From Polyangiaceae bacterium (GTDB lineage Bacteria > Myxococcota_A > Polyangia > Polyangiales > Polyangiaceae), in NCBI GenBank assembly GCA_029261965.1, contig JAJDAH010000112.1, forward strand, positions 1 to 64,000: DNA of 64,000 bases. The letters are read 5' to 3'. The position numbers and the translations under genes were made by a program. The notes beneath the pieces are model-generated. The model made no database searches, had not been told where the DNA came from, and saw nothing but the letters and a program-made list of their open reading frames with translations. The number at the start of each line of letters is the position of its first letter. Positions within the stretch are counted from its first letter, which is position 1. This document shows positions 8,002-33,059 of the stretch, piece by piece.

Positions 8002-8083
8002 CGATTTTTCCGTCCGCACCTCCCGCGCGACAAGACCCAGCCGCCGCCCTTGCCCCCCGCGCCCTCGGCAAGCGCTGTACCCC

Positions 8084-8983: not shown

Positions 8984-9023
8984 GTCGAACCAACTCGCCA
9001 GCGATTATATCAGCTGGAAAGCC

Positions 9024-11102: not shown

Positions 11103-11174
11103 CCGGAGCGCAGAAGTGTACGGGAAGCGGCGATCGGCCGCCGACCGAGATGGGCCTCGCTCAGAAGGCGCCCT

Positions 11175-11741
11175 CTACGCGCGCAGCCCCCGCGCGCGCA
11201 ACGCGTCTTGGGCCCCGCCAATCCCGCTCAGACCCATGGCGCCGCCACGGTGAACGATTCGCTTCCCACCGGGCCAACAAGCCGCCAGTGCCGGCGCGGA
11301 GCTCGTGAACTGAAACTCGGGCGAAAAAACCACTGTGTTCAGCGGGGCGAGCTGCTCCCCGCCAGGTCCAAGCAACCAGTGCGTCTGCCGATCGATGACG
11401 ACAACTGGTGGGAAGTCGGTCAACGGCCGTTTTGCCTGCGTCTTCACCCAAGAGTGCACCGCGACGAAGCCCGCTCCGCCGAGCCCGGCAACGAACAGCA
11501 GAATCACGCCCGCCAACACGAAACCCTTGCCCATCGATCCGAGCACGAGCTGCGCGACGCCATTGGCGCCGACGATGAACGTCACGAGACCGAGCACGAA
11601 TCGCAGCCAGAAGGTCCAACCCGTTCCCCGATTCACGAAGACCAGCCGATGACCGTCTTCGTAGAGCACGTGCCCAGCGGCTTCGGTGAGAATCGTCAAG
11701 TTGGCCCGTGCCCCCGCACCGGGGATCAATACTAGGCCCAT
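11175..11741 (-). CDS. membrane protein of unknown function, two TM segments
   Basis: The product has 188 residues from the ATG at 11741; a GTG at 11783 would add 14 residues, and neither start has a clear ribosome binding site. Residues about 40-66 (WTFWLRFVLGLVTFIVG) and 74-98 (VLAGVILLFVAGLGG) form a membrane hairpin. Flanking soluble parts look beta-rich (LVFVNRGTG, PPVVVIDRQTHWLL). The family is not recognised. It lies downstream of the 50-residue gene on the same strand, 75 bp away, and may share its transcript. Confidence 0.55.
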   Translation of the reverse strand: MGLVLIPGAGARANLTILTEAAGHVLYEDGHRLVFVNRGTGWTFWLRFVLGLVTFIVGANGVAQLVLGSMGKGFVLAGVILLFVAGLGGAGFVAVHSWVKTQAKRPLTDFPPVVVIDRQTHWLLGPGGEQLAPLNTVVFSPEFQFTSSAPALAACWPGGKRIVHRGGAMGLSGIGGAQDALRARGLRA

Positions 11742-11816
11742 CGGTCGATCGCCACACCCGCTCCTGAGCGCACCACCGATCACGAGCGGCGCGCGAGGTG
11801 GGCTCGCTATCGGTCT

Positions 11817-11969
11817 TCAGCGTCGGTGGCGCCGAGCTCGCTGCTCGGCGGCGACTTCGGCGACCAACCGCTTTGCTTCGGCCATCCCGATCAGCGCCAC
11901 TAGTTGCAAGAACTTCGCTTCCTTGTCCCGAGGCCGCTCTTCGCGCTCGACGGTTCTACCCAGTAACAT
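11817..11969 (-). CDS. small protein, 50 residues, charged helical
   Basis: ATG at 11969, TGA at 11817. A strong ribosome binding site (GAGGAG) lies 8 bp upstream of the ATG, which is the best evidence that the frame is real. The product begins MLLGRTVEREERPRDKE, has a hydrophobic helix-forming middle (FLQLVALIGMAEAKRL) and ends with a basic tail (RARRRHRR-like). It would form an amphipathic helix and might bind nucleic acid or a membrane. No family is recognised. The upstream 100 bp contain an AT-rich tract that may hold its promoter. Confidence 0.55.
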   Translation of the reverse strand: MLLGRTVEREERPRDKEAKFLQLVALIGMAEAKRLVAEVAAEQRARRHRR

Positions 11970-16508: not shown

Positions 16509-16931
16509 CGTGGGCGCCATTGCATCGCACTGTCCCGCGAACGCAAGGGCTCACCGCGCGCTCACCGCGCGCCTGGATTCTGGGGTATCTCGGCTAGATC
16601 TGCTCCCTCGGCCCGTCGAGCTCCACTCCCCGCGTAGCGCCGTCTGTGTACTGCATGAACCTCAGCTTCTTCTCGATGCTGCGGTTCTTGTGAACGAGTC
16701 GGCCCCGTCGCCAGAGCGACTGGTCGCAGCCGTCGATGGGGGCCCGCCTGGTGGGGACCGGGTCGTGTGAGCCAGCGACGCTCGACGCCCGAGCTTTCGC
16801 CCGAGGAATCTAGAAACTGGGACCAGGGCCAAATCGGCGGATCAGCCACAAACCCCGCTCTGGAACCTGTCTTAGCCGCACAAAAGCGTACGTTACGTCA
16901 ACGTGATATTCTGCTCGTCGAGGACCTCTCC
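16509..16931. other. 423-bp divergent intergenic region
   Basis: It separates terC from the radical SAM gene. Holds an 11-bp tandem duplication (16550-16571), a short minus-strand frame with only a late ATG (MQYTDGATRG, 19 codons, not called), and the inverted repeat ACGTT-ACGTC-AACGT at 16890-16904, 28 bp before the radical SAM start. No RNA gene was recognised. Confidence 0.4.
16550..16571. repeat. 11-bp tandem duplication upstream of terC
   Basis: CTCACCGCGCG occurs twice head to tail, about 42 bp upstream of the terC start. It is a possible regulator half-site pair or simple slippage product. Confidence 0.35.
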
Positions 16932-18563
16932 ATGCGCGTTCAGCTCATTCATCCACCAGCTCACGTCAATCCCAAGGCGCTGACGGCGCTCCGGCCATCG
17001 CCCCCTCTCGGCTTGGCCTACATCGCGGCCGCGCTTCGCGAGGCGGGTCACGACGTTTCGATGCTGGATTGCTTGGGGGACGCTCCAACTCAGCTCACCC
17101 CTGAAGGCCCGGTCTCCCGCATCGGCCTGAGAGACGACGAGATCCTTTCTCGCATCGATCGCGACGCGCCGGTGCTCGGCATCACCAACATGTGGAGCTA
17201 CGCGTGGCCGGCGCTCCGACAGCTGGTTTCGAAGATCAAGAACTGCTTCCCCGAGAAAATCATCGTCGCCGGCGGCGAGCACTTCACCGGGCTGGCGGAA
17301 GTGTCGATGCAGCAAGCGCCGATCGACATCATCGTGCTCGGCGAAGGCGAACGCATCATGAACGAGCTCGTCGGCAAGCTCGAAGCCGGAAACTTCGACG
17401 CTTCGAGCGTCGACGGCATCGTCTGGCGCGACGGCGACAAGATCGTCATGAACAAGCGCCCCAAGGGCTCGAAGGCCGTGGACGAGATCCCGTGGCCCGC
17501 GTGGGATCTGTTCGACCTCGACGTCTACAACGAGCACCGATTCCTCCCCGGGACGTACATGGGCAAGACCGTGCCGGTGCTCGCCACCCGTGGCTGCCCT
17601 TACGACTGCACCTACTGCTCCGCCCCCAACATGTGGGAGCGCCGATGGGCCCCTCGTGCGCCGGTCGAAGTGGCGGACGAGGTCGAGTTCTACGCCAAGG
17701 AGTACGGCGCAACGCACTTCCCGTTTCAGGATCTGACGGCGTCTCTTCAGCGCAAGTGGACCGTCGACTTCGCACGGGAGATCATCAAGCGGAACCTCGA
17801 CATCAAGTGGCAGCTCGCGGTCGGTACCCGCTGCGAGATCATGGACGACGAGGTCTGCCAGCTGCTTTACGAATCCGGTTGCCGCACGCTCTACTTCGCC
17901 CCGGAGTCCGGCTCGGACAGAACTCGCAAGCTCATCAAGAAGAAGATGAAGCGCGAGGCGCTGATGAGCGCCGTCGAGAGCACGGTCAAGGCCGGGATCA
18001 CCCTCGGGATCTTCCTCGTGATCGGCTTCCCCCACGACAGGCGCGAGGACCTCGACGAAACCGTCAAGCTCGTGCGTGAACTCGCCCGCATGGGCGTCAC
18101 CGACATCTGCGTGCCGGTCTTCTATCCAATCCCCGCCAGCGAGCTCTACGACGACCTCATCGCGAGCGGCCGCATCACCCAATGCGATGCGACATTGCTC
18201 GCCCCCATGACCGCACACCTTCCGATCCTGACGGAGGAGCGGAACTACTGCGAGCACGTGTCGGCTCGTGAGCTCAACTTCTACAAGTATTGGATCGTGG
18301 CGAACTTCTACGGCACGTCCTACGCGACTCACCCCGAGCTGATGACACGAATGGCCAAGAACTTCTTCAAGAACGAAGAAGAGTCGAAGATGGAAACTTT
18401 CGTGCTCGAGCTGAAGAAGAAGGTGCTCGGCAGCGGCACCGGCAACGCCCGCCCCGACACGCGCGGTCCCAACTCGCCGACGCCAAAAAAACGAGTTCCG
18501 CGCGCCCCCGAGCGCAAGTCCGAAAAAACCGGGCAGCTCATCCGCTTGCGCCACGCCGGCTGA
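16932..18563 (+). CDS. B12-binding radical SAM protein
   Basis: The product has 543 residues. ATG 16932 is chosen because GAGG lies 8 bp upstream and the N-terminus then matches B12-binding domains directly (VQLIHPPAH, SPPLGLAYIAAALREAG). The [4Fe-4S] motif CPYDCTYC gives Cys222, Cys226 and Cys229, which with SAM generates the 5'-deoxyadenosyl radical. The cobalamin domain (about 1-150) lacks the DxHxxG motif, as is common in this class. Known members methylate unactivated carbons or rearrange lipids, hopanoids and natural products; this substrate is unknown. The tail from about 510 is basic and Pro-rich. The context is membrane and surface genes. Confidence 0.88.
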   Translation: MRVQLIHPPAHVNPKALTALRPSPPLGLAYIAAALREAGHDVSMLDCLGDAPTQLTPEGPVSRIGLRDDEILSRIDRDAPVLGITNMWSYAWPALRQLVSKIKNCFPEKIIVAGGEHFTGLAEVSMQQAPIDIIVLGEGERIMNELVGKLEAGNFDASSVDGIVWRDGDKIVMNKRPKGSKAVDEIPWPAWDLFDLDVYNEHRFLPGTYMGKTVPVLATRGCPYDCTYCSAPNMWERRWAPRAPVEVADEVEFYAKEYGATHFPFQDLTASLQRKWTVDFAREIIKRNLDIKWQLAVGTRCEIMDDEVCQLLYESGCRTLYFAPESGSDRTRKLIKKKMKREALMSAVESTVKAGITLGIFLVIGFPHDRREDLDETVKLVRELARMGVTDICVPVFYPIPASELYDDLIASGRITQCDATLLAPMTAHLPILTEERNYCEHVSARELNFYKYWIVANFYGTSYATHPELMTRMAKNFFKNEEESKMETFVLELKKKVLGSGTGNARPDTRGPNSPTPKKRVPRAPERKSEKTGQLIRLRHAG

Positions 18564-18595: not shown

Positions 18596-20134
18596 TCAGC
18601 GCGGGGCCGCCCGCCGACTGTCGACCGCGCGGTAGAGCGCCCACGGACCAGTGCTGAAAATGCGCCGGAACGGAAGCGCGGCCATGTACCCGTTCGGCGC
18701 TTCCCCGCGGACCACGATGTATTCGTAGTAATAGCCAAACCGCTCGTAGTTGTAGAGCCAAGGCCACCACTCGAACATGACCGGGGTCGGTGGCCGCTTC
18801 GTGTCCCCACGTGGGCGGACGGGCATCGTGAACGCCATGTCGGCGAAGCTGAACGCGATGACCGCGCCTTTCTTCGCCTGAGCATAGGCGGAGAAGTGGG
18901 GGTAGGGCAGCGACATCGACACGTCACCGCCGTGCTCCCACGTCATCGCCAGTAGCGAGCTGCGTTCGGGCACGTGCTCGAGGATGCGGTCGAAAGAACG
19001 CGCCTCCCGGTCGAAGCGCACGAGATGAAACCAGCTGTTCGAAACAGTCACCACCGCGAGCGGCAAGAGCATGAGCTTCAAACGCCTGAGGCTCACTACG
19101 GCGGGAACCAAAAGCGGCAAGAAGCTGAACGCGATGACGCCGTTTCGCAGATCCAACGATTTGACCGAAGCCGTGTGCGTCGGCAGCGCAAAGAACAGCA
19201 GCAGATTGATCGTCACGAATACCGCGACGACCCGTTCGTCGTGGCCGAGCGCCCGAAAGCGCGCGCGGGTCACCGGCAATGCTCGCCAGGCCAGAACGCC
19301 AAAAACCAGGAGGAACACCACGACGAGCCCGCTATCCGTCAAGTCTTGATAACCGCCGGCGATCCAAGCCGGCAGCCACTTCAGCTTGAACCACAACCCC
19401 GGATGCTCGACGCCGCCGTAGGGCTGCGCGTGTTTGCCGAGCAGGACCCAAACCAGCGCGCCCAAGACCAGTGGCGTCAACGGCAACAGCCGCCGAACGA
19501 GCTGCTCGCGACGACCAAGAACAACCGAGAGCGCCGCGTACCCGAGCAACACCGCAGCGCCATAGATGTGGCACAGCGCGATCGCGACCGAAAGCACCGT
19601 CAGCACCGTCGTCGACACCCGTGTCTGCTCGCGCCGCATGAACACCGCTATCGCCACGAACGCCAAGCCAATCGACAGGTTCGAGCTCAAGAACCCCCAG
19701 AAAACTGCTCGGTTGTAGACGAGCGGGAGCGCGAGCAGCGCCAATAGCGGCGGCTTTTTCATCACTCGCAGCGCCAGCAGCACCCCTAGCGGGTAGAGCA
19801 CCAGCGACAAGAACACCAAGCTCCGCATCGCCGCATCGATGCCCACGACCCGACTGAGATACCCCCCGAAAACATACGGCAGAAGATAGAGCGAACGATC
19901 GAGCGCGAGCTCGTAGTGCCGGAAGTAGCCCAGCTTCTCGGCGTCCAAGTTGCCGAACATCGACGCCATCGCGTAGTGCTGCGGCAAATCCGTGAACGGC
20001 AGGTACGCGAGCGCGAGCGCCGGCGCGGCGAGCACCACGACAAACGCCAGGATCGTGTGGCTCCCGCTGAGCCACTGCCGCGCCGGAGCTACCCGTTCGG
20101 GCGCCGCGCTCGACGGGGGACTGCTCGCGGGCAT
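18596..20134 (-). CDS. polytopic membrane protein, GT-C glycosyltransferase-like
   Basis: The product has 512 residues from ATG 20134; an alternative start at 20164 adds 10 residues. There are about 10-12 membrane segments and a first outer loop LPFTDLPQHYA carrying an acidic residue next to His, the position where GT-C enzymes keep catalytic acids. The C-terminal 120 residues are soluble and aromatic (FEWWPWLYNYERFGYYY). The likely role is transfer of a sugar from a lipid carrier on the outer face of the membrane (inference from fold layout); no exact family can be named. It converges on the radical SAM gene with a 32-bp gap. Confidence 0.6.
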   Translation of the reverse strand: MPASSPPSSAAPERVAPARQWLSGSHTILAFVVVLAAPALALAYLPFTDLPQHYAMASMFGNLDAEKLGYFRHYELALDRSLYLLPYVFGGYLSRVVGIDAAMRSLVFLSLVLYPLGVLLALRVMKKPPLLALLALPLVYNRAVFWGFLSSNLSIGLAFVAIAVFMRREQTRVSTTVLTVLSVAIALCHIYGAAVLLGYAALSVVLGRREQLVRRLLPLTPLVLGALVWVLLGKHAQPYGGVEHPGLWFKLKWLPAWIAGGYQDLTDSGLVVVFLLVFGVLAWRALPVTRARFRALGHDERVVAVFVTINLLLFFALPTHTASVKSLDLRNGVIAFSFLPLLVPAVVSLRRLKLMLLPLAVVTVSNSWFHLVRFDREARSFDRILEHVPERSSLLAMTWEHGGDVSMSLPYPHFSAYAQAKKGAVIAFSFADMAFTMPVRPRGDTKRPPTPVMFEWWPWLYNYERFGYYYEYIVVRGEAPNGYMAALPFRRIFSTGPWALYRAVDSRRAAPR

Positions 20135-20196
20135 CGGGCAGAGTCTACCCAATGCGGCGCACACCCGACCGACGCGGTGGCGCGAGACGGCGACGT

Positions 20197-21342: not shown

Positions 21343-23100
21343 TTGAGCGCGCGCGACCGGGCCGCCCGATTGCTCGCGGATCGCCGAGTCCCAGCGGCGG
21401 CCACCCTGCTCGGCGTGCTACTCGCGCTGCCGTCGCTCTGGGGAAACTTTCACCCCGAAGACATCTTCTTCCGGGACGCCGCCGGTCTTGGCCAGATCTT
21501 GTTCGGCACAGTCGGCGATCCACGACATGCCAACATGCTCGCAAAAGACACGGGCGTGTTGCCGTGGATCGCCTCGGAAGATTGGCAGCTCGCCTTCTCG
21601 CGACCGCTGACCACGCTCACGCACCGGCTCGACTACGCATGGTGGCCCGAATCACCCGTGGCGATGCACGCGCACAATCTCGTTTGGTTCGCCGCGCTGC
21701 TCTTCGGGGCGGCCACCCTCTTTCGCCGGTGGCTGAGCTCGCCGGCGGCGGCTGGCTTGGCGGGGCTCCTGTACGCCGTCGACGACGCGCACGGTTTCGG
21801 CGTCGGCTGGATCTCGAACCGAAACGCGCTCGTCGCCACGGCCTTCGGAATCGGCGCGCTCCTCTTGCACGACAGATGGCGCAGCGCTCGCTCGACGTGG
21901 GCTGGCATCGCCGCGCCCTTTTTTCTGTGGCTGGCGCTCGGCGGTGGAGAGATGGGCCTTGGCGCGGTCGCCTACATCGCGGCGTACGCGCTCTTCGTCG
22001 ACACCGGCAAACGTCGTTGGCTGACGCTTTGGCCGACGGCCGTCGCGTTGCTGCTCTGGGCCGTGCCGTACCAATTGGGCGGCTTCGGCGCCCACGGCTC
22101 CGGGATCTACGTGACGCCGAGCAACGACCCCGTCGCGTTCCTCGGGCTGGCCATTGCCCGCTTGCCACTGCTGACGCTCGGAGCGCTCGGGGTCGTACCC
22201 GCGGCAGTCGCGGGTTTGCTCGTCGACCATTGGCCCGCGGTGTTCGTTCCCATCGCGGCGGGGATATTGCTTCTGGTGGCCCTCGGCTCTTACCCGATCG
22301 TCCGCGCCTCCCGTGAAGCCAAGTTCTGGTCGACTGGAGCCATCCTCAGCGCGCTTCCGATTTGCGCCGCGCTACCCGAGGATCGCTTGCTGTTCTTTCC
22401 CGGCCTCGGCGTGATGGCGCTCATCGCCCTCGTCGTGCGCCGAGCCCTCACGAGCCCGCATGACCTCGGCCGTCTTCGGCCGTTTGTCGTGTTCTCGGCG
22501 TTTGCGCTCCTCTTCTTGCAGGGCGTGCTCAGCCCGGTGCTTCTTCCCGTTCGCGCGTTCGGCATACGCGGCGCCACGCCTTGGCTCGCCCGCGCCGCCG
22601 AGTCCGCGCTGGCCGGGCACCAATCGTCCGAGCAACATCTCATCGTCGTCAGCGCGCCGGATCTGGCAGTGGGCTCGCTGATGCTCGGTGTGTACTCGAG
22701 CGTCGAAGGGCCCATCCCCCAGCACACCAGAGTCCTGCACGGTGGCCAAAATGGGCTCGTCGTCACCCGAGTCGACGCAAACGCACTGGTGCTCCGACCC
22801 GAAGGGGGGTTCATGGCCACGCCGCCCAACAAGTTCTTCCGCCTAGACGGCATGCGGGTCGGCGACGAGCTTCAGCTCACCGCCTTCCGATCGAAAGTCT
22901 TGGCCGTCGACGACGACGGGATGCCCACCGAGGTGGAGTTTCGATTTGGCTGGCCGTTGGAAGACGGGCACCTGCGTTGGGTCGGGTGGGACGGGAAACG
23001 ATTCGTGCCGTTCACGCCGCCCGCCGTCGGAGAATCCGCGCGCCTGCCGCCGAGCATGACGGACTGGAGCCTCGAAGAGCTCATGGCTCAGCTTCACTGA
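21343..23100 (+). CDS. polytopic membrane protein with C-terminal soluble domain, paralogue A
   Basis: The product has 585 residues from a TTG at 21343; no good ATG is available and the start is uncertain. The layout is an outer loop with acids (FHPEDIFFRDAAG), a Trp/Arg-rich loop (FSRPLTTLTHRLDYAWW), the motif WISNRNALVATAFG, about ten membrane segments, and from about residue 430 a soluble part beginning LIVVSAPD and ending with a beta-rich domain (LVLRPEGGF, RPLEDGHLRW-like). Two paralogues follow at 23094 and 25990. The fold resembles GT-C glycosyltransferases; activity is inferred only. Its 3' end overlaps the convergent paralogue B by 7 bp. Confidence 0.65.
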   Translation: MSARDRAARLLADRRVPAAATLLGVLLALPSLWGNFHPEDIFFRDAAGLGQILFGTVGDPRHANMLAKDTGVLPWIASEDWQLAFSRPLTTLTHRLDYAWWPESPVAMHAHNLVWFAALLFGAATLFRRWLSSPAAAGLAGLLYAVDDAHGFGVGWISNRNALVATAFGIGALLLHDRWRSARSTWAGIAAPFFLWLALGGGEMGLGAVAYIAAYALFVDTGKRRWLTLWPTAVALLLWAVPYQLGGFGAHGSGIYVTPSNDPVAFLGLAIARLPLLTLGALGVVPAAVAGLLVDHWPAVFVPIAAGILLLVALGSYPIVRASREAKFWSTGAILSALPICAALPEDRLLFFPGLGVMALIALVVRRALTSPHDLGRLRPFVVFSAFALLFLQGVLSPVLLPVRAFGIRGATPWLARAAESALAGHQSSEQHLIVVSAPDLAVGSLMLGVYSSVEGPIPQHTRVLHGGQNGLVVTRVDANALVLRPEGGFMATPPNKFFRLDGMRVGDELQLTAFRSKVLAVDDDGMPTEVEFRFGWPLEDGHLRWVGWDGKRFVPFTPPAVGESARLPPSMTDWSLEELMAQLH

Positions 23101-24860
23101 GCTTCGGAGGACACTTCGACGATCTCGCCGAGCGCCGGGGGCACGAAGTCGACGAACTGCCCGTCCTGCCACTTTTTCCAAACGAACCCGGGATCTTCGA
23201 GCGGACGATCGAGCTCGAAGGAAACGATGCTCGGGCGGCCCCCGTCGTCGATGGCGACGACCCTGGCTTTGAACGCTCCAAGCTCTGCCGTTTCGCCGAC
23301 CGTAGAAGGAGCGGCGCGGTAGATGGGCCAGTCGCTTCCAAAAAAACTCCGCTCGGCGCGAAGCACGAGGGTCTTTTCGTCGCGGCGCTGCACCCAGACC
23401 CTGCCGCTCGAGGGGCAGAGAATGTTCGAGCTGAGGGGGCGCGACTGTCCTCGCGCCTTCCGCATCAAGAGCCCGGTGCCGAAGATGGCCTGCATCGGGG
23501 CGTTGACGATGAAGACGCGTTGGTCGGCGCGAGCCGTGCTCACTGCTTCTTCCGCTCGGGTGTAGAGTCGATCGAGCGTGGCCGCGTCGTGGTGGCCGTC
23601 GATGAGCGCCCCGCGGGTCAGCGCGTACGCCGACGCCGGCCCGTGAGCGACAAACGCCGCGAGGCCCACCGCCAAGGCGGCGAAGCCGAGTGGCTTCGAG
23701 CGAATCGACCGGCGACCCGACACAGCGTGGACCACGAGCTCCGCGACGAGAATGCTGCCGCCGAGGGCGGTGACCACGAAGAAGCGCACCTGGGGTGCGG
23801 TCGCCGCGATGGGCACTTGCGCAAGCACGAGGCCGAGCGCCCAGAAGCGCAGGTGCGCGTGTCGGCGAAGCAGCGGTAGGAATACGACCGCAAGCAGCAC
23901 GAGAACGGTCACCGCGACCGCCGGCGACCAGAGCGGCTGCCAACTGAGCGTCGGGATCCCCAATAGCTTGGTGTCGACGAGCATCGGCACGCTCCGCGCG
24001 ACGGCGCCGGCAAACAAGCTCGCCTGGCCAATGGGATCGATGTACAGGCCGATGCCCTGCACGCCGTACCCCGCCGCGGCGTAGTAGACGACGTACGCCG
24101 CCGTCACGCCCACCCACGGCAGCGCCCCGACCGCGCGCTCGCGAAGACCGACGCGGTCGACGAAAAACGCGTGGCACCCGAGGTACACGGCGATACAGAG
24201 CGCCGACTCGCTGGTGACGAACGCGAGCCCGAGACTCACTGGACAGAGCCACGCGCCGGGACGCCAGCCATCTCGACGCCAAGCATCCTGCGACGCCAGG
24301 GCGACGGCTCCGAAGGCAGCGGTCATCATGAGGTTGCGCGCCGCTAGCCACTCGACAGATGCGGCATGGCCGTCTTCGAGCGCGAAGAACAGGACGGCGA
24401 GGGCCGCAGCGAGCGGCGAGCTGGTGAGCCGACGGGCCAGCCACGCAAAGGCCCCGATGGCCGCGGCGAGCCAGCCCAGGCTGATGGCATGCATCGCGCC
24501 GATGCCTTTGGGGAACAGCCGAAACTCCTGCACGTGCATCTGTAGCGGCAGCGGCCGAAACACCGCCATCGTGGCATCGAGGTTGGTGTACCAGGGCAGC
24601 CAGCCTTCCTCGCGGGTGCGCACGCGATACAGGAGCTCTTCGGCGGGCCGGCGCAGGTCGACGTGGTAGTCGCCGTAGCGGGCACGATGCATCATGCCCC
24701 AGTCGTCGAAGTACAGTCCGTTGTCGAGCGCGTGCGAGCAAAGCCCGACCGCCAGTAGCGCGCAACCAACGCACCACAGGACGTAGCGCTTCGCCATCCA
24801 CGAGCCGGCAACCGAAGAGTCTTCTTCGTTCGACTCTGCCCGCCGTGGCGCATCGGACAT
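23094..24860 (-). CDS. polytopic membrane protein with C-terminal soluble domain, paralogue B
   Basis: The product has 588 residues from ATG 24860; an upstream in-frame start at 24878 is possible. It shares the family plan with A and C: an acidic first loop (YFDDWGMMH), a loop VFRPLPLQMHVQEF, the motif EWLAARNLMMTAAFG, about ten membrane segments, then FIVNAPMQA and a beta-rich end (LVLRAERSFF, RPLEDPGFVW). The FDD pair is the strongest candidate for catalytic acids of a GT-C-like enzyme. It is tail to tail with A (7-bp overlap) and divergent from the pair at 25020. Confidence 0.65.
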   Translation of the reverse strand: MSDAPRRAESNEEDSSVAGSWMAKRYVLWCVGCALLAVGLCSHALDNGLYFDDWGMMHRARYGDYHVDLRRPAEELLYRVRTREEGWLPWYTNLDATMAVFRPLPLQMHVQEFRLFPKGIGAMHAISLGWLAAAIGAFAWLARRLTSSPLAAALAVLFFALEDGHAASVEWLAARNLMMTAAFGAVALASQDAWRRDGWRPGAWLCPVSLGLAFVTSESALCIAVYLGCHAFFVDRVGLRERAVGALPWVGVTAAYVVYYAAAGYGVQGIGLYIDPIGQASLFAGAVARSVPMLVDTKLLGIPTLSWQPLWSPAVAVTVLVLLAVVFLPLLRRHAHLRFWALGLVLAQVPIAATAPQVRFFVVTALGGSILVAELVVHAVSGRRSIRSKPLGFAALAVGLAAFVAHGPASAYALTRGALIDGHHDAATLDRLYTRAEEAVSTARADQRVFIVNAPMQAIFGTGLLMRKARGQSRPLSSNILCPSSGRVWVQRRDEKTLVLRAERSFFGSDWPIYRAAPSTVGETAELGAFKARVVAIDDGGRPSIVSFELDRPLEDPGFVWKKWQDGQFVDFVPPALGEIVEVSSEAQ

Positions 24861-25019
24861 GGTGGCTCGGTGGTACAAAGTTTGCGGGTCACCGGCTAGT
24901 TTCGACGCGTCTCCGTCGACGGTCGCGGTCGCAGTCGATCGGGCTTTGGCCGGTCCACGGCCTCCAACTCCAGCTCCGAGGCTTACCTCCCAGGCCCGGC
25001 TTGTGGCACGGTGAACACG

Positions 25020-25988
25020 ATGAACGCCGGCGCCATCGAACCGCCGACCGCTGCGATCCCTCGGCGGCTTCTCGCGGCGTTCTACCTCGTCGTACCCCTC
25101 GCCATCGGCGGAGCCCTGCTAGACGGTCTGGTCCTCGGCGGATCGATGCGCGCCGGGCTACCGCTCGTGCCGGACGAGCTGCCGTATTGGACGCTGCTCT
25201 TCAACGTGCCGCACGTGGTCGCGAGCGTCTTGCTCCTGGCAGACCGCGAATATCTCGTTTACTACCGCTGGCACATCGCCGGAGCCCTCGGGGGCGTCGC
25301 CGCGCTGACGCTTCTTCACGCCAGCGCGAGCATGAACGTGACGATGTGGATTGCCGCGGCGATTCTCAGCTACCACCTCGTCGGCCAACAGGTGGGGATC
25401 GCCAAGATGCTCGGCGGCTGCACGAGTTCGCTGATGACCGCTTGGAAGGGAATCGGTGCGGCGCTACTGCTGCTGGCCACCGCGTCGCAGCTCGACGTGA
25501 TGCACCTCCCCGAGGGGTTCGTGCTGGACGAGCACCAGCTTGGCGCGCTCTTGTGTCTCCCGCTGCTCTATCTGGGGCTGCGCGTATGGCAAAAAAGCAA
25601 ACCCGGCCTCGGCAGGCTCTACGTGCTCGGCAACCAGTTGATGTTTCTGGCGTTCGTTCCGCTCGCGCAAACCGGATATTTTTTCATGGCCGCCGTGATG
25701 ATTCGGGTGGTGCACGATCTCACGGCGTTCTCGTTCTACATCGTGCACGATCGGAATCGACATCGGACTGAAGACAAGAACAGCCTCTACCGGGTGTTCT
25801 CGGTGACCCGACTTCCGCACTGGGCGCTGCTGCTCGGTGTTTCGATCGGCCTCGGACACCTCTTGACGCGGATCGAACCGAGCGAGCTGATGCACCCGGT
25901 CGCGATGATCTCGATGTTTCACTACTGCATGGAAGCAATGACTTGGCGGAGAACGGGGCTCCACCGCCGCGCCGTCAGCATCGCCTGA
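25020..25988 (+). CDS. His-rich integral membrane protein, possible metalloenzyme
   Basis: The product has 322 residues; ATG 25020 has GGTGA five bases upstream, and a GTG at 25011 could add three residues. There are about eight membrane segments. His residues recur at the ends of segments: FNVPHVVAS, YYRWHIAG, SYHLVGQQVG, RVVHDLTAFSFYIVHD, MFHYCMEAMTWR. This pattern suggests a haem- or metal-binding membrane enzyme, but no family is recognised. The next gene starts 1 bp after its stop, so it is cotranscribed and probably works with paralogue C. Confidence 0.65.
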   Translation: MNAGAIEPPTAAIPRRLLAAFYLVVPLAIGGALLDGLVLGGSMRAGLPLVPDELPYWTLLFNVPHVVASVLLLADREYLVYYRWHIAGALGGVAALTLLHASASMNVTMWIAAAILSYHLVGQQVGIAKMLGGCTSSLMTAWKGIGAALLLLATASQLDVMHLPEGFVLDEHQLGALLCLPLLYLGLRVWQKSKPGLGRLYVLGNQLMFLAFVPLAQTGYFFMAAVMIRVVHDLTAFSFYIVHDRNRHRTEDKNSLYRVFSVTRLPHWALLLGVSIGLGHLLTRIEPSELMHPVAMISMFHYCMEAMTWRRTGLHRRAVSIA

Positions 25989-25989
25989 C

Positions 25990-27756
25990 ATGGGAGCGGC
26001 AACCTTTTCCAAACAGCCTTGGCTGTGGGCGGCAGGGATCATCGTGGCAGCGCTCCTTCTGCACCTCGGAGGGTTGTCCGCCGGCCTCGAGTTCGACGAC
26101 CCGATCCTGACCAAGCTCATCGCCGCTCGCATCGACAGTCAGAACGTGCCGGGCGAGTGGCACGAAGTCGCCGGCCTCCGCAATCCCGACGGACCGGCGG
26201 GCATCGCGCGCGACATCGCCGCCGGTCGAGTTCCCTGGTGGACCGATCCCGAGGGAGCCTGGTCGATGTTCCGGCCCGCCGCGGTCGTGACTCACTACAT
26301 CGACATGTGGTTTTGGCCAGCGAGCCCCGTGTTGATGCACGTGCAGAACATGGTGTGGCTGGGTTTCTTGTTCTTGTCAGTGTGGTGGCTCTTCCGGCGA
26401 TTGTGCGAACGGGAAACCGTGGCGCTCTTCGGCCTTGCACTGTTCGCGTTCGCCGCGCGAAACGGCGAGATGGTCAGTTGGATCTCCGCCCGTAACTCGG
26501 TGATGATGGTCGCGTTCGCCGCGCTCGCGCTCGCCGTGCACGATCGCGCGCGCCGCGAAAGCTGGGCGCCGGGGCGCTTTCTCGCCCCGCTGTTTCTGCT
26601 TTTGAGCCTGTGGAGCAGCGAGGGCGGCGTGAGCCTTTGGGGAGCGCTGCTCGGCTACGCGCTATGGGTGGACCGCGGCAAGCTAGCCGCACGCGCCGTG
26701 GCGCTCGCTCCCATGGCGGCCGTCACCGCCGGATGGCTCTTGCACTATCGTCTCAGCGGCTTCGGCACCCGCGGCGGCGACTTGTATCTCGATCCCGTCG
26801 GAGATCCGCTGGCGTTCCTCGCCGCGGCTCCGGCCCGCCTCGCTCAGTTGGCGCTCGAGCTGTTCGGCCTTCCCCAGAGCGCGTTCCGCGAGTCGTGGCC
26901 ACCGCCTGGGCTCGGTGACGCGCTCAACGTGCCAGCGATCCTCCTGTGCGTGACTACGTTGCTCGTGCTCGGATGGTTCGCACGGACGGATACCCGAGTG
27001 CGCTTTTGGCTCTTCTCTTCCGTGCTCGCGCTGCTGCCGCTCTGCGCCGGTGCGCCGAGCCACCGGCTGCTTTTGCTGCCCGCGGCGTTCACCTGCGGCG
27101 CCCTCGCGCTGGCAGCAGCCGAGCTTTGGCGCCTGACCGAGAACAAGCGCCTTGCTGGCCGCTCGCTGGTGGCGGCGTGGGTCGCCGCGCATGTGCTCGG
27201 CGGCATCATCTTGATTCCGATGACCGGGCGCGCGCGCACCGGCGCGGACGTTCTCTTGCAAGGCCTTCGCGCCGAGCTCCCCGTGGGTCACGGTGAGCCA
27301 CCGTTGATGGTGATCAACACGCCGCATGCTGCGGCAACCGCTTTCGCGCTGTTTCTCGCGAGCGACGTCCCGTTCGGCGACGACCAACACTACGTGCTCG
27401 GAGCCGCAGCGGCCCCAGTCCTTCTCACTCGGGTGGCACCGAACGCCATTCGGCTGCAGCCCGCGGGCGGATACCTCGCCGAGCCGAGCAGCCGAGCCTA
27501 TCGAGCGGCAAACCGACCGATGCGCAGCGGCGAGCAGTTTCGCCTAGGCGAAGGCCAGCTGACCGTCGAAGAAGTCAGCCCCGACGGGCGCCCACTGAGC
27601 GTGCTCTTGGTTTGGGGCGGCGCCGAACGACTCGAAGACGCGAAGCTGCGTTGGACCACCACGGTGCACGACGGCGCACGCTTGCGCAGCATCGACGTCA
27701 CGCTGCCCAAACCGGGACAATCAGTCGAGGTGCCGTTCCTGATGCCGCCGACATGA
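25990..27756 (+). CDS. polytopic membrane protein with C-terminal soluble domain, paralogue C
   Basis: The product has 588 residues. It shows the same plan as A and B: an acidic loop (LEFDDPILTK), an inserted loop and MFRPAAVVTHYIDMW, the motif SWISARNSVMMVAFA, about ten membrane segments, then LMVINTPHAA and the beta-rich tail (LQPAGGYLAE, ERLEDAKLRW). The first outer loop is longer than in A and B. It follows the His-rich membrane gene by 1 bp. The function is inferred to be transfer or remodelling of a lipid-linked sugar, without direct evidence. Confidence 0.65.
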   Translation: MGAATFSKQPWLWAAGIIVAALLLHLGGLSAGLEFDDPILTKLIAARIDSQNVPGEWHEVAGLRNPDGPAGIARDIAAGRVPWWTDPEGAWSMFRPAAVVTHYIDMWFWPASPVLMHVQNMVWLGFLFLSVWWLFRRLCERETVALFGLALFAFAARNGEMVSWISARNSVMMVAFAALALAVHDRARRESWAPGRFLAPLFLLLSLWSSEGGVSLWGALLGYALWVDRGKLAARAVALAPMAAVTAGWLLHYRLSGFGTRGGDLYLDPVGDPLAFLAAAPARLAQLALELFGLPQSAFRESWPPPGLGDALNVPAILLCVTTLLVLGWFARTDTRVRFWLFSSVLALLPLCAGAPSHRLLLLPAAFTCGALALAAAELWRLTENKRLAGRSLVAAWVAAHVLGGIILIPMTGRARTGADVLLQGLRAELPVGHGEPPLMVINTPHAAATAFALFLASDVPFGDDQHYVLGAAAAPVLLTRVAPNAIRLQPAGGYLAEPSSRAYRAANRPMRSGEQFRLGEGQLTVEEVSPDGRPLSVLLVWGGAERLEDAKLRWTTTVHDGARLRSIDVTLPKPGQSVEVPFLMPPT

Positions 27757-27817: not shown

Positions 27818-30250
27818 CTACTCGGAGGCCGGCTCGGGGGCGAACACCGTCCGGCAAAGGGCGAGCGCCACGAGATAGATGGCGAGACCCACCCAGAGCG
27901 ACATCGTGATCCCCGCATGCAGCGCCACGACGGTGGCTAGTGTCGACGCAAGCACGCTCATCGCCCCGTTGATGCTCCAGAGCCATGGGATCCGTGTGCC
28001 CGCGCGCTCTCCGATCGCCCGGAGTCCCGCCGGAAAGGGCACCCCCAAGAGCATGCCCATCGGCAGCAGCATCACGGCGGCAACGAGGGCTCGTGCCGTG
28101 GTCGGAAGCGCGCGCGTGGCCTCGAACACGGCACCGCTCACCGTCCCGAGCACCACCGCGTAGCCGACGAGAGCCAGAATCGCTCTCGGAACCCGCTTGC
28201 CGAGAGCCGGCAAGTCCCCGCTGGCCAGCCATCGGCTGCCAAAGCTGCCGCCAATCAGCAGCGTGAAGAGCACGACCGCGAGAGTGTAGACGGGTTGGCC
28301 GAGATAAAAGGCGAAGCGCTGCAGAAACGCGATCTCCACGAACATGAAGCCGAGCCCCAAACAAGCGACGTAACCAAGATCAGCGGCCGGGCTGCCTCGC
28401 CCCGCGCGTACCTCTCGGCGACCGAAGAAAAGCGGGACCAAGAGAAAAGCCCCCACCAAGAGAGTGGCCACCGCGACCACTTTCGCCACGATCGCCAGCC
28501 CGTTGCCAAACAGGTGAGTCTGCTCGAACGAAAACATCGCTCGGAACATGTCGCGCAGCCGGTTCTGATAAAAGAAAAACGGCCGATCGTCGGTCGTGGG
28601 TGAAATGTCGATCGGCCAACGCTCGAGCTGTTCTTGAAACTTCGCCGAGTCCGTCTGCCGCAGCGCCACGTGCATCATCGCACTCTCGAAGTCGACCGGC
28701 TCGCCTCGCCCGGGGAAGTACACCCGGCGGAACCCGAGCTCATCAACCTGCGTGGCCAGTTTTTCGACCTCCGCGTCGGTGAAGCCATCCGGCTTAATCA
28801 AAAAGTCGTACATGGTCGCGTCGCCGAGGCCCATCCACGGCGTCGCGACGACGATGACCGAACGCGCCGGGTCGCTCCCCCGGGCGACGAGCGCCGTGCG
28901 TGCGATCGACGCGAGACGAGCGCCAACCGCCAGACCGGGCAAGGTCACCGAAGACACCGTGAACACGCCGCCGGGCTTGAGCGCGCCAAAAAAATCGTTG
29001 AAGGCGTCGACCGTGTAGAGACTGTTCTCGGTCAGCGCATAGGCCCCGGCAGCGGTGGCCGCCGACGTATCGACCATGCTCAGAAGCAACACGTCGAAAC
29101 GTTGGTCGGTTCCGCGCACGAAGCTCCGCCCGTCGTCGACGACCACGTGCACGTCGGGGCGGTCGTAAAGCCCGCCGGAGTACTCCTTGTACTGGCCGCG
29201 CACGACCTTCTCCACGATCAATGGATTGATTTCGACGGCTGTCACCGCTTTCGCCCCGGCCGCCAGAGCGGCCAGCACGTCCTTGCCGCCACCGGCACCG
29301 ATGATGCAAACGTCTTCGGGCGATGGGCGGGACCGATACACGACGGCGCTCAGATCGTGCGAAGTGAACTGCGCTCCCTCGAGTGATCCATCGAACCGGG
29401 TGATCGTGGTCATCGCGTTGAGGTCGATGACCAGCGTCTTCTGCTCGGGGATGTCGCCCTGGTACTTTGGACTCACCCCCCATCCCCGAAAGCCCGCGCC
29501 CGGTCCGACCGTCACCATCGAAAACGAGTTCCACTCGTTGAACTCGATCAGCGCGGGGTCCATGTTGATCCCCTTCGCCACACGAATGCGCAGCAGACCG
29601 AGACTCGGGTCGAGCGCTGCCACGGCGATGACGAGCCCGGCGGCGACCGACGCGATGGTGAACGACCTCTTCTTGGACTGGGCTCCCCTGGCGAACAGCA
29701 CTGCCGCACCGGTGGCCAGCAGCGCGCAACCGAGCATCGCCCGAGGCCCCCCGAATGCCCCGAGGAGCGGGATCACCAACAAACATGCCGCGCCGGCGCC
29801 GAACAAGTCCCAGAAGTAGAGATCGTGAGCGCTCTTCGCGTGACGCATCATCGCCAGCGCGATGGCAAATCCGCCCGCGAAAAACGGTGCCGCCGCCATG
29901 ATGAACAACCCGAGCAGCTTCCACGTCAACCGCGTGAAGATGGTTCCCCCGAACCAATCCGGGGTGAGGTGAATCAGCGCGATGTCTACCCCCACGATCA
30001 CGAGCGCCAGCACCGACGACGCCAACGCCAGATGATCGCCGGTTCGTTCCGGGGCGAGCTTTGGCTGCCGAAGATGAACGAACAGCGCTGCGGCGGCGGA
30101 GCCGAACAGCGCCACCGAAATCACGAAGAACGCGAAGTGGTACCAGAGCACCACCGAAAAAATTCGAGTGAGCACGAGCTCGGTGCTCATCAGCGCCGCC
30201 GAGAGCAGTCCGACTCCGATTCCGACGTCGCGCGTGTACTTCGAGCTCAC
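27818..30250 (-). CDS. membrane protein with embedded spermine-synthase-like domain
   Basis: The product has 810 residues from a GTG. Six or so N-terminal membrane segments are followed by a soluble domain (about 210-570) and a C-terminal block of about six more. The soluble domain has the spermidine-synthase glycine loop VCIIGAGGGKDVLAAL and the acidic partner AVEINPLI. The segment corresponding to the catalytic DSTDP reads LLLSMVDTSAA, so the catalytic Asp is Ser. It ends with TTDDRPFFFYQ, a motif common in these membrane-fused relatives. The function is unknown and differs from the 2513/9024 pair in having membrane blocks on both sides. It is the last gene of a minus-strand run from 34094. 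Confidence 0.75.
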   Translation of the reverse strand: MSSKYTRDVGIGVGLLSAALMSTELVLTRIFSVVLWYHFAFFVISVALFGSAAAALFVHLRQPKLAPERTGDHLALASSVLALVIVGVDIALIHLTPDWFGGTIFTRLTWKLLGLFIMAAAPFFAGGFAIALAMMRHAKSAHDLYFWDLFGAGAACLLVIPLLGAFGGPRAMLGCALLATGAAVLFARGAQSKKRSFTIASVAAGLVIAVAALDPSLGLLRIRVAKGINMDPALIEFNEWNSFSMVTVGPGAGFRGWGVSPKYQGDIPEQKTLVIDLNAMTTITRFDGSLEGAQFTSHDLSAVVYRSRPSPEDVCIIGAGGGKDVLAALAAGAKAVTAVEINPLIVEKVVRGQYKEYSGGLYDRPDVHVVVDDGRSFVRGTDQRFDVLLLSMVDTSAATAAGAYALTENSLYTVDAFNDFFGALKPGGVFTVSSVTLPGLAVGARLASIARTALVARGSDPARSVIVVATPWMGLGDATMYDFLIKPDGFTDAEVEKLATQVDELGFRRVYFPGRGEPVDFESAMMHVALRQTDSAKFQEQLERWPIDISPTTDDRPFFFYQNRLRDMFRAMFSFEQTHLFGNGLAIVAKVVAVATLLVGAFLLVPLFFGRREVRAGRGSPAADLGYVACLGLGFMFVEIAFLQRFAFYLGQPVYTLAVVLFTLLIGGSFGSRWLASGDLPALGKRVPRAILALVGYAVVLGTVSGAVFEATRALPTTARALVAAVMLLPMGMLLGVPFPAGLRAIGERAGTRIPWLWSINGAMSVLASTLATVVALHAGITMSLWVGLAIYLVALALCRTVFAPEPASE

Positions 30251-30290: not shown

Positions 30291-31871
30291 TCACGGCCCG
30301 CGTTTGACCGCCGTCGCCATGAAGTGCGCGCTGTACCGCCTGAGCCGGGAGGTCTCGAGGAATCGCTCGAGTGCCGTGAAGCGCCGAAGGAGCCACGGCG
30401 GAATGAACTCCGGCAAGAAGGTGAAGTACTCGATCTGTTCACTCCAGGACTGCCCCTCGATGGGCGGCAACTCCGAAGGCAAGATCCACTCTTCCGTCCC
30501 GTCGTCGATCTTGCGGAGCATCGGAAAGACGTAGCCCATGTAGAACGCGAACAGCGGGTTGAAGGTATTCATCTCGTGCAAGAAGAACACTCCGCCGGGT
30601 TTGAGCACCCGAAAGATCTCCGAGAGCACTTTCTGCCGAGCCTCGGCTCCCGGAACGTGGTGCAAGACATTGATCGCGTAGGCAAAGTCGAAGCTCGCGT
30701 CCTCGAAAAGCAACTCGGTCGCGCTGCCCGTGGCGAATGCGATCGCCGGTGTGATGCCTTCGGACTGCAGGCGCGCCTTTTCCACCTGACCCGCGGAGTC
30801 GTCGATGCCCGTCATGCAGAAACCCGACCTTGCGAGCTCGACGGCGTACGGACCTTGCCCACAACCGACGTCGAGACCACGCGCGCCGGGCCCGATCTTC
30901 TGACGCTGCAACGAGTCGACCATCGCGCCCGTTTTGCGTTGCAGGAGCCGGCCTTTGACGTGCTCGGGGATCAGCGAGCCGTACTCTTCGGCGAGCTCGT
31001 CGAAGTGCTTTTGCTGTCGACGCATGGTCGTGCGGAGCTCTTCGCGCCACACCAGGAGTGAAACCACGCCGATGCCCATGGCGAACCAGACCGTCCCGAT
31101 TCGAAAGACCGCGGCGACGACCACCGCCTGGCCCTCGGCGACCCCCGACTCGGCCAGCTGAATGATGATGACCGAACTGGCGACGCCACCGCCGAGAGGG
31201 ATGCCGCTCAACCCTCCGGTCGCCGTGCCTCCAGCGAACGCATGGGCGCTGCGCGAAAGCGTCACGCCCTCGGTCAGGAACGAGCTCGAGACGTGAAGCG
31301 CAAGGATGAGCAACCCCCACGTCATCAAGCTCACGAAGGTCAGCGACCATGCGAGCCCGAGCGATCGTTTCCAGCTCGGCCCGATGAAACGCGCCGCGAC
31401 CAACGCGCCGAGGAGCAACCCCGCCGTGGAGCCCGCAAGCGCCGCCGATCCACTCTCGATCGACCAGAACACCAGGAGTGACAACAGGTCGAGGGTGCGT
31501 TCGGCCACCCACACCGCCACGAGTTGTCCGGTGCGAACGGACGACACCTTCCGCAAGTAGACGACGCGCAAGAGCTCTCCCAACCCGAACGGGGTCAACA
31601 AGAGGGGAACCGTCGCCAGGTAGAAGCGCCAGCTGTTGCGTACCGCCACGCTGTGGGTGAACCGACGAAGCAGGTAGTGCCACCGGAGCCAACGGGTACT
31701 GACGTGAAGCGTCGTGAGCACGGCGCAGCCCAACAGCGCCAGCGAGATGCCCCGAGGCTCGGCCGCGAAGTGTTCGATGGCGCCGGCAGCGAGACCAAAC
31801 CAGTAGTAAGCCGCCAGCGCGCCAGCGAGCAGAGCGGCGACCCCGAGCGCGACTATCCACTTGACCAGCAT
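30291..31871 (-). CDS. flippase-like membrane domain fused to a methyltransferase
   Basis: The product has 526 residues from ATG 31871 (a TTG lies one codon upstream). Residues about 1-280 are the polytopic LPG-synthase-TM/UPF0104 type seen in MprF flippase domains and glycolipid transport proteins (LTPFGLGELLRVVYLRK, WVAERTLDLLSLLVFW, SGIPLGGGVA). After a charged linker (RRQQKHFDELAEEYG) a class I methyltransferase follows: GLDVGCGQGPYAVEL (about 337-351), GIDDSAGQ, FDFAYAINVLHHVPG and RVLKPGGVFFLHE. The fusion suggests methylation of a membrane lipid or polyprenyl-linked compound that the first domain binds or flips (inference). Gaps to neighbours are 40-45 bp, same strand. Confidence 0.8.
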   Translation of the reverse strand: MLVKWIVALGVAALLAGALAAYYWFGLAAGAIEHFAAEPRGISLALLGCAVLTTLHVSTRWLRWHYLLRRFTHSVAVRNSWRFYLATVPLLLTPFGLGELLRVVYLRKVSSVRTGQLVAVWVAERTLDLLSLLVFWSIESGSAALAGSTAGLLLGALVAARFIGPSWKRSLGLAWSLTFVSLMTWGLLILALHVSSSFLTEGVTLSRSAHAFAGGTATGGLSGIPLGGGVASSVIIIQLAESGVAEGQAVVVAAVFRIGTVWFAMGIGVVSLLVWREELRTTMRRQQKHFDELAEEYGSLIPEHVKGRLLQRKTGAMVDSLQRQKIGPGARGLDVGCGQGPYAVELARSGFCMTGIDDSAGQVEKARLQSEGITPAIAFATGSATELLFEDASFDFAYAINVLHHVPGAEARQKVLSEIFRVLKPGGVFFLHEMNTFNPLFAFYMGYVFPMLRKIDDGTEEWILPSELPPIEGQSWSEQIEYFTFLPEFIPPWLLRRFTALERFLETSRLRRYSAHFMATAVKRGP

Positions 31872-31916
31872 CAACAGGTCGCGAGCCGGGGCATCGGCCC
31901 CGCGCCGGAAGGAAGG

Positions 31917-33059
31917 TCAGGGAGCGGCATCACCGGTCACCGCGGGCACCCTCATTTCCCCGGTCGACGGGGCGTCCACCGCCGCCGCCGAATCGTCGGC
32001 CGCTGCATCTTGGGGTCCGGGGTCGTCGTCTTGAACGAGTTCGGCGCCGGCATCCTCGCCCGTCGTCGTCGTGATCAGCATCGACAGCATCGCCACTACG
32101 GTGAACTTCTCAGGCTTTCCTCCGCGCTCCACGTCGAGAGTCATCGTAGCGCTGGTCGTGAACTTTCCTCGAAGCGGGACACCGGTCACACGGTCGACCA
32201 CCAGGTCCCCCGTCCCGTCGCCTCGATATCGCTCTAGCGTCGCCGTTTGTCCGGGAAGGATCGGATCGGGAACCGGCTGCGATGGGGCTTCCTGGCGCGA
32301 AGACACCTTGATCACGGCCAGGTCTTCGTCGAGCCCCACCAGTCGCATCGTCGAGACTTGGATGATCTTCACCCCACCCGCGCTCAACGTTTCCCGGAAG
32401 TGCCACTCGGCTCCGATGCCCACGGGCGCGCCAGGCAACCGGAACGGGTATCGCGGCTGCGACTGCCACGCGCTGTCGAGAAAGCTCTTGAGCTCGGCCG
32501 GAGGCTCGACCCCCCCGAGCTTGCCCGCACGAACCTCGACGACTTCGGCGTCCTCGGCCACGAGCATCGTGTTGCTCGTGCCCGCCATCGGCGAGAGCTG
32601 CTCGTTCATGTGGTCGAGGTATTCTTTGGGAAACTTCTCCCCACGGAGCTCGATTGAATCGATGACCGCCTCTTCCTCGACGAGCGCCAGTGTCTTGAAA
32701 TCACGCTCGCGAAGGATTGGATCCGCCGTACCACGCTTGGTCGTGATGCGAACCGTCATGACGAGGGTGGGGTATTCGACGGGCTTCTGCCCCTGCAGCG
32801 ACAGCGACCCGTTCGTCTCGATAACCGTCGTATAGCGGTATCCCGTCCACCGACCGACCTCGAGCTTGGTCCACGGCTTCTGGCCAGCATCCACCATGTC
32901 GGTGTACTGGCTGTACTCGCTCGCGTCCGCGCCCGCCTTCGAGGAGATCCCGCATCCCTCGCACCCGCGTTGACAACCGAGAGCGACCGTCAGCGTCAGC
33001 AGCATCCCGGCGCGCCGCCACAGACGGGAGCGTCGCGTCAGCGATGGGAAAGAGCGCAC
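31917..33059 (-). CDS. lipoprotein of unknown function (DUF6263-like)
   Basis: The product has 380 residues from a GTG placed 3 bp after the upstream stop. There is a basic N-terminus and a lipobox VALGC, then a Cys cluster (CQRGCEGCG). The mature part is beta-rich with GIGAEWHFRETL and RLVGLDEDLAVIKV, reminiscent of DUF6263 proteins, a family without known biochemistry; this match is tentative. The last 55 residues are Asp/Ala-rich and probably disordered. The position within a four-gene minus-strand run (phosphoesterase, this gene, flippase-methyltransferase, spermine-synthase-like) suggests an envelope role. Confidence 0.6.
   Translation of the reverse strand: MRSFPSLTRRSRLWRRAGMLLTLTVALGCQRGCEGCGISSKAGADASEYSQYTDMVDAGQKPWTKLEVGRWTGYRYTTVIETNGSLSLQGQKPVEYPTLVMTVRITTKRGTADPILRERDFKTLALVEEEAVIDSIELRGEKFPKEYLDHMNEQLSPMAGTSNTMLVAEDAEVVEVRAGKLGGVEPPAELKSFLDSAWQSQPRYPFRLPGAPVGIGAEWHFRETLSAGGVKIIQVSTMRLVGLDEDLAVIKVSSRQEAPSQPVPDPILPGQTATLERYRGDGTGDLVVDRVTGVPLRGKFTTSATMTLDVERGGKPEKFTVVAMLSMLITTTTGEDAGAELVQDDDPGPQDAAADDSAAAVDAPSTGEMRVPAVTGDAAP

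Follow-up and report, generated by a model that had tools for sequence, protein, structure and literature searches.

A 64,000-nucleotide stretch of the genome of a Polyangiaceae bacterium (assembly GCA_029261965.1, contig JAJDAH010000112.1, positions 1 to 64,000), referred to here as the window, carries three related genes for membrane proteins, A, B and C, which lie around a gene for a His-rich membrane protein, H. The locus raises the question of what these proteins do and whether their genes form one system. A preliminary description regarded A, B and C as paralogous, glycosyltransferase C (GT-C)-like proteins and proposed that, with their neighbours, they could make up an undescribed envelope lipid or glycan modification locus. 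Prediction and comparison now give the three proteins a common family, a GT-C fold, a set of conserved sites and partial synteny with two neighbouring genes, c1 and c4.

The A, B, H and C genes

The four genes are arranged as follows.

A: 21343-23100, plus strand; 585 amino acids with a TTG start; GT-C family protein with HPED after the first transmembrane helix (TM1), SRPLT and WISNRN
B: 23094-24878, minus strand; 594 amino acids from TTG (an ATG at 24860 gives 588); GT-C family protein, long branch
H: 25011-25988, plus strand; 325 amino acids; His-rich polytopic membrane protein
C: 25990-27756, plus strand; 588 amino acids; GT-C family protein, 1 bp after H

All four have a coding-like G+C content at third codon positions (0.80-0.83). 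A and B are convergent and their tails overlap by 7 bp, B and H are divergent, and C is convergent with c1. The gap of a single base pair between H and C, noticed at the outset, is real (TGA C ATG), and by gene arrangement only H and C, among the four, look as if they share one transcript.

The paralogy of the three GT-C family proteins is borne out by a search of the own genome with C, which finds A at E 2.9e-52 and B at E 1.6e-37, and by common motifs. Where aligned with A, B is 31% and C 34% identical to it. The acidic pair of the first loop (ED in A, DD in B and C), the RP loop (RPL in A and B, RPA in C) and the W-x-(S/A)-x-RN motif (WISNRN, WLAARN and WISARN, respectively) are all found as described. 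The marks given for a common C-terminal domain hold in part: the V(S/N)xP start is present in A (VSAP) and B (VNAP), while C has Ile in place of Val (INTP), and LED stands near the end of all three proteins, preceded by Arg in C only. None of A, B, C and H scores above any Pfam or NCBIfam cut-off.

Predicted fold of C

The AlphaFold model of C, made from 53 aligned sequences, has a predicted local distance difference test score (pLDDT) of 91.2 and a predicted template modelling score (pTM) of 0.92. In a Foldseek search with this model, all 19 matches in the PDB at E <= 0.001 are GT-C enzymes. Structural alignment gives Z scores of 21.4 for Stt3, 20.2 for Pmt4, 18.9 for ArnT and 18.7 for PglB, against a noise level for helical proteins of about 13, as named by the alignment tool. 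Structure prediction followed by structural alignment was a test set beforehand, and on the model C has the GT-C fold with high confidence. Sequence alone does not reveal this relationship in the PDB: no chain was matched in a search with C, and a profile search gave one match at chance level (E 0.32).

The highest fold scores are those of the Stt3/AglB/PglB group, with a Foldseek E of 2.2e-6 for AglB and most of the model aligned; however, identity in these structural alignments is 8-13%, and no STT3 Pfam match is found in A, B or C at E <= 1. Stt3 bears the oligosaccharide-transfer motif WWDYG. ArnT, the lipid A aminoarabinose transferase, has the GT-C fold in common with C (Z 18.9 and 18.7) but only 8-9% identity, and no PF13231/PMT_2 or other ArnT-type Pfam match occurs in the three proteins at the same threshold.

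C also has a separate C-terminal part.

C-terminal domain of C: 27241-27753, plus strand; residues 418-588; beta-rich in the predicted structure

Predicted alone, this domain has a pLDDT of 88.5 and a pTM of 0.85. Its best matches in the PDB (Foldseek E 0.049, Z 3.0) point to no clear solved fold, which does not prove that the fold is new.

Conserved sites and relation to TMTC proteins

A scan of named genomes yielded 67 loci, which by record titles belong to Myxococcota, Planctomycetota, Acidobacteriota, Hydrogenedentota, Pseudomonadales, Spirochaetes and others. The main alignment (A5) contains 53 sequences, namely the three window proteins and 50 from the scanned loci, a selection from the open reading frames listed; a second alignment (A10) contains 47 of these 53. 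The weak profile matches of the family are mostly to TPR-bearing GT-C proteins of TMTC type (CAZy family GT105). Comparison of the family profile with a TMTC-like GT-C profile by hhalign gives a probability of 99.7% (E 4.4e-27) over residues 24-380 of C. Among five aligned TMTC-like relatives, one has PF08409 above the cut-off and two have weak PMT_2 matches.

The motifs of human TMTC proteins are given as DD, SHKSYRP, RxD, KE(T/Q)xxT, DW and ERxxY in PMC7801869, which also mentions prokaryotic full-length homologues. Five sites of C can be paired with them, the pairing resting on the hhalign alignment and on order along the chain.

D36-D37: 26095-26100, plus strand; acidic pair after TM1, equivalent of TMTC motif M1
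R95-P96: 26272-26277, plus strand; equivalent of RP in TMTC motif M2
R168: 26491-26493, plus strand; Arg of W-x-x-x-RN, equivalent of Arg in RxD
E211: 26620-26622, plus strand; equivalent of Glu in KE(T/Q)xxT
R359: 27064-27066, plus strand; equivalent of Arg in ERxxY (phosphate contact)

These positions are conserved with hardly an exception in the 53 rows. The Asp or Glu after TM1 that is expected as the catalytic base of GT-C enzymes is present, since D37 is found in all 51 rows with a letter there, D36 being Asp in 47 and Glu in 4. R95, R168, E211 and R359 are each found in 53/53 and P96 in 52/53. There are also invariants specific to the family, for example W83, G259 and P269. TMTC and bacterial TMTC-like proteins have in common with the family a homologous GT-C region with the DD, RP, Arg, Glu and Arg sites. 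By contrast, of RxD and KE(T/Q)xxT only R and E are retained: the position of the Asp is Ala in 47/53, and Lys precedes E211 in 3/53. The C-terminal TPR repeats of TMTC find no match in A, B and C, which have the beta-rich domain instead, and PF08409 (TMTC_DUF1736) gives none at E <= 1. To judge from sequence, the family is related to TMTC-like enzymes yet lies outside TMTC proper.

Proposed function

It is rather likely that A, B and C are GT-C glycosyltransferases of the inner membrane which move a sugar from a polyprenyl-phosphate carrier to an acceptor of the envelope. Each of them would take one sugar from the carrier at the periplasmic face and pass it on, most likely to a surface polysaccharide or glycolipid. 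In C, D36-D37 after the first membrane helix would supply or position the catalytic base, R359 would hold the donor phosphate, and R95-P96, R168 and E211 would line the donor site. A, B and C being only some of many divergent copies, these may differ in the acceptor that they glycosylate or act on one glycan at successive positions. Activity, donor, acceptor, membrane side, the role of the C-terminal domain and the division of labour between copies are what we infer from fold, sites and neighbourhood.

The nearest described parallel for the domain architecture is GT136 (ORF12 of Citrobacter youngae). According to PMC11127046 it is a GT-C enzyme with a catalytic acid near TM1 and a C-terminal beta-rich module, which modifies O antigen; the module binds the acceptor and is not essential. 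Because that module binds the acceptor, the beta-rich domain of the present family, probably periplasmic, may by analogy help to hold the acceptor, the two having been likened by description only.

Several points weigh against this proposal. The fold matches of C include PIG-U (8imx_U), the GT-C-fold subunit of glycosylphosphatidylinositol (GPI) transamidase, so that the fold by itself is no proof of catalysis. No carbohydrate-binding module is found among the matches listed for the C-terminal domain of C, which leaves room for one. The family has lost two TMTC residues, the Lys in KE and the Asp in RxD. GT136 works in a three-component locus with a donor synthase and a flippase, according to PMC11127046, whereas no dedicated donor synthase and flippase are kept beside the present family in 88 loci examined for neighbours, a set in which some loci overlap as copies of the same region.

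Size and phylogeny of the family

In the own genome 12 places are matched by C, including C, A and B; nine lie elsewhere than in the window. Two of these matches, C360 and C180, are near neighbours in the tree and could be duplicates arising from assembly. In a sample of 60 genomes from the same taxonomic family, 41 have matches at E <= 1e-5, the own genome included, and no sampled genome except the own has more than five. In the phylum, where only 9 candidates were scored per genome, the profile matches 79 of 140 genomes at E <= 1e-10; many of these matches are short and weak, and the six proteins matched in eight such weak places, when read again, are mostly TMTC-like. No account of the family was found in the literature searched by title and abstract. 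As far as tested, it is undescribed, and it is new as a named unit.

For the trees, four own paralogues were used without their N-terminal extensions, and two added rows were cut to <=620 residues; approximately unbiased (AU) tests were made on trees of 34 and 36 hand-picked rows. In the tree, the sister of A is a paralogue from contig C316 (51% identity, support 100), and no branches are longer than those of B (2.02) and C (2.47). A recent local triplication is rejected, as a single clade of A, B and C has an AU p of 7.4e-7; B and C as sisters are not rejected (AU p 0.46). The presence of 3 of the 12 family genes within such a span has a P of 1.6e-4 under random placement. Given the separate tree positions of A, B and C and the existence of other clusters of unlike members, the cluster looks, from sequence comparison, like a gathering of old paralogues.

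One such cluster is found in L098 (Myxococcales bacterium 8_1_Oct_SF_Bin19), where four unlike family members, scattered over the tree, lie within 12 kb (122-1954, 6109-7980, 8052-9878 and 9875-11905).

Neighbouring genes c1 and c4

Beyond C, three genes follow on the other strand.

c1: 27818-30250, minus strand; membrane protein of about 14 transmembrane helices with a spermine-synthase-like domain (PF01564, 30.4 bits, cut-off 22.9)
Flippase-methyltransferase: 30291-31874, minus strand; LPG_synthase_TM (flippase-like) and methyltransferase; not found in compared neighbourhoods
c4: 31917-33059, minus strand; predicted lipoprotein, called by eye from the N-terminus

The family has no general neighbour among the 88 loci, the commonest non-family cluster being c1, in 7. 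A same-strand partner less than 60 bp away is found for 37 of 92 family members, a total that covers members scoring more than 80 bits once identical tails had been removed. In three gammaproteobacterial loci (L108, L124 and L126) this partner is an Acyl_transf_3 gene directly upstream, and a GT2-methyltransferase gene lies near the family member of L045; both neighbours point to glycans.

Genes of the c1 type have about 16 copies in the own genome. Of 10 family loci in the own genome, 3 have c1 no more than 2.5 kb away, with a P of 2.9e-4 that is post hoc, calculated after the neighbours were seen. In L046, L047, L048, L054 and L093, c1 is directly upstream of the GT-C gene on the same strand. 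Spermine-synthase-like membrane proteins are much expanded in the own genome as a whole, with about 15 places besides 27818-30250, about five of them on contig C8.

Close orthologues of c4 (E < 1e-50) occur in 8 other genomes of the 60, and in 5 of the 8 a GT-C family gene lies less than 7 kb away; in two it does not, and the remaining one is a short contig. c4 was picked from L047-L049, so that three of the 8 genomes (G054, G059 and G012) were known beforehand; beyond these, G027 and G020 agree, G032 and G006 disagree, and G035 is the contig, of 3.4 kb. The order c4, c1 and a convergent GT-C gene is found in L048, L144 and L145, as in the window. The window has the flippase-methyltransferase gene between c4 and c1, where L144 has another gene of c1 type, on the opposite strand. 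In L047 and L049 c1 is missing from this place, L147 has c4 and c1 without the GT-C gene, and L146 has c4 alone.

The five GT-C genes beside c4 in other genomes form one clade (support 98). C as their orthologue is rejected (AU p 0.006; 0.0115 with three of them), in a test that shares the weakness of C being a long branch. The GT-C slot beside c4 is therefore kept, and either a different family member fills it here or C has diverged beyond the reach of the test.

The idea of one modification locus is thereby reduced to a smaller kept set, composed of a GT-C gene, c1 and c4, the last of which was not named in the preliminary description. These genes are kept together in part across relatives. 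In 11 compared regions, A, B, H, the flippase-methyltransferase gene and the radical S-adenosylmethionine (SAM) gene of the window as such were not found beside the kept genes.

A rather unlikely alternative to transfer onto a polysaccharide or glycolipid is that A, B and C are protein O-glycosyltransferases of TMTC or Pmt type, acting on exported or lipid-anchored proteins such as c4. The profile link to TMTC-like proteins, the match of the model of C to Pmt4 and Stt3, and the recurrence of the lipoprotein-like c4 near a GT-C family gene in five genomes would agree with this. Nevertheless, the family is without the TPR part and two site residues of TMTC, c4 occurs in G032 and G006 with no GT-C gene close by, and the majority of family members do not have c4 in their vicinity. 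Within the error of Z, the scores for Stt3, ArnT and Pmt4 are equally high, and the fold therefore does not favour one kind of acceptor over another.

Less probable still is a loss of catalytic activity in B and C, which would then be partner proteins with a structural or regulatory role, comparable to PIG-U in GPI transamidase. Their long branches, the lack in C of D155 and H158, which are common in the family (44/53 and 43/53), the absence of the first Asn of NRN from both, and PIG-U itself among the fold matches speak for such a loss. D37, R95, R168, E211 and R359 are, however, all retained in both proteins, and both reading frames are open.

H and other nearby genes

In H, the residues H68, H122, H235-D236 and H246-D247 are conserved in all four copies. 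H304-E308 is also conserved: of the aligned sequences only the L141 stretch, which was cut, lacks it, and the L141 open reading frame has it. These His, Asp and Glu residues suggest a metal site. A paralogue of H in the own genome (L059) adjoins an Lnt-like gene, and two relatives, L140 and L141, occur in one Pseudomonadales genome (E 3e-55 and 5e-39). No match to H was found in 281 of the 282 phylum genomes searched (all but the own), nor in plasmids, and no relative was confirmed in viral contigs. In the short stretches read around the three other copies, no GT-C family gene adjoins them. The genomes seen do not support H as a conserved partner of GT-C genes; it is probably an independent gene, cotranscribed with C in this locus only.

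Upstream of A, the gene at 18596-20164 belongs to a family whose proteins have about 10 hydrophobic stretches; scans of two members and of the one in L088 gave no Pfam match. Its relatives lie at L041 7769-9328, L088 2050-3732 and L045 1747-3420; those of L041 and L088 come immediately downstream of a gene of the GT-C family. It is found in one of the 11 compared regions, L045, in the own genome, and its match to the GT-C family is weak (hhalign probability 45%). The gene at 16767-18563 encodes a B12-binding radical SAM protein whose best NCBIfam match is the Sden_1168 P-methyltransferase family (160 bits, cut-off 575). Two large membrane proteins with similar N-termini are encoded at 2513-4579 and 9024-11102; one has a weak, sub-cut-off methyltransferase match and the other no Pfam match.

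That A, B, H and C form one dedicated pathway with the radical SAM, flippase-methyltransferase, c1 and 18596-20164 genes would fit the 1-bp gap between H and C, the recurrence of GT-C, c1 and c4 genes in relatives and the clustering of A, B and C beyond random placement, but it is improbable, as the compared regions do not retain H, the flippase-methyltransferase, the radical SAM gene, A or B as such, H is almost absent from the phylum genomes searched, and the genes are on both strands.

Significance for envelope biology

A more far-reaching and quite speculative extension of the envelope glycosyltransferase proposal is that a GT-C family with a new C-terminal fold, c4 and c1 constitute a myxobacterial system that adds a further modified (e.g. 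aminopropylated or methylated) sugar to a lipoprotein or envelope glycan, with an exchangeable GT-C slot occupied by different members in each genome. The conserved site residues and the cassette of c4, c1 and GT-C gene are specific points at which experiments can start. Should the C-terminal domain prove to be a new fold, it would represent a further acceptor-binding type among GT-C enzymes. Because the family is large, spread over several phyla and multiplied in this genome, while no Pfam or NCBIfam model recognizes it, envelope sugar transfer would be under-counted in these bacteria.

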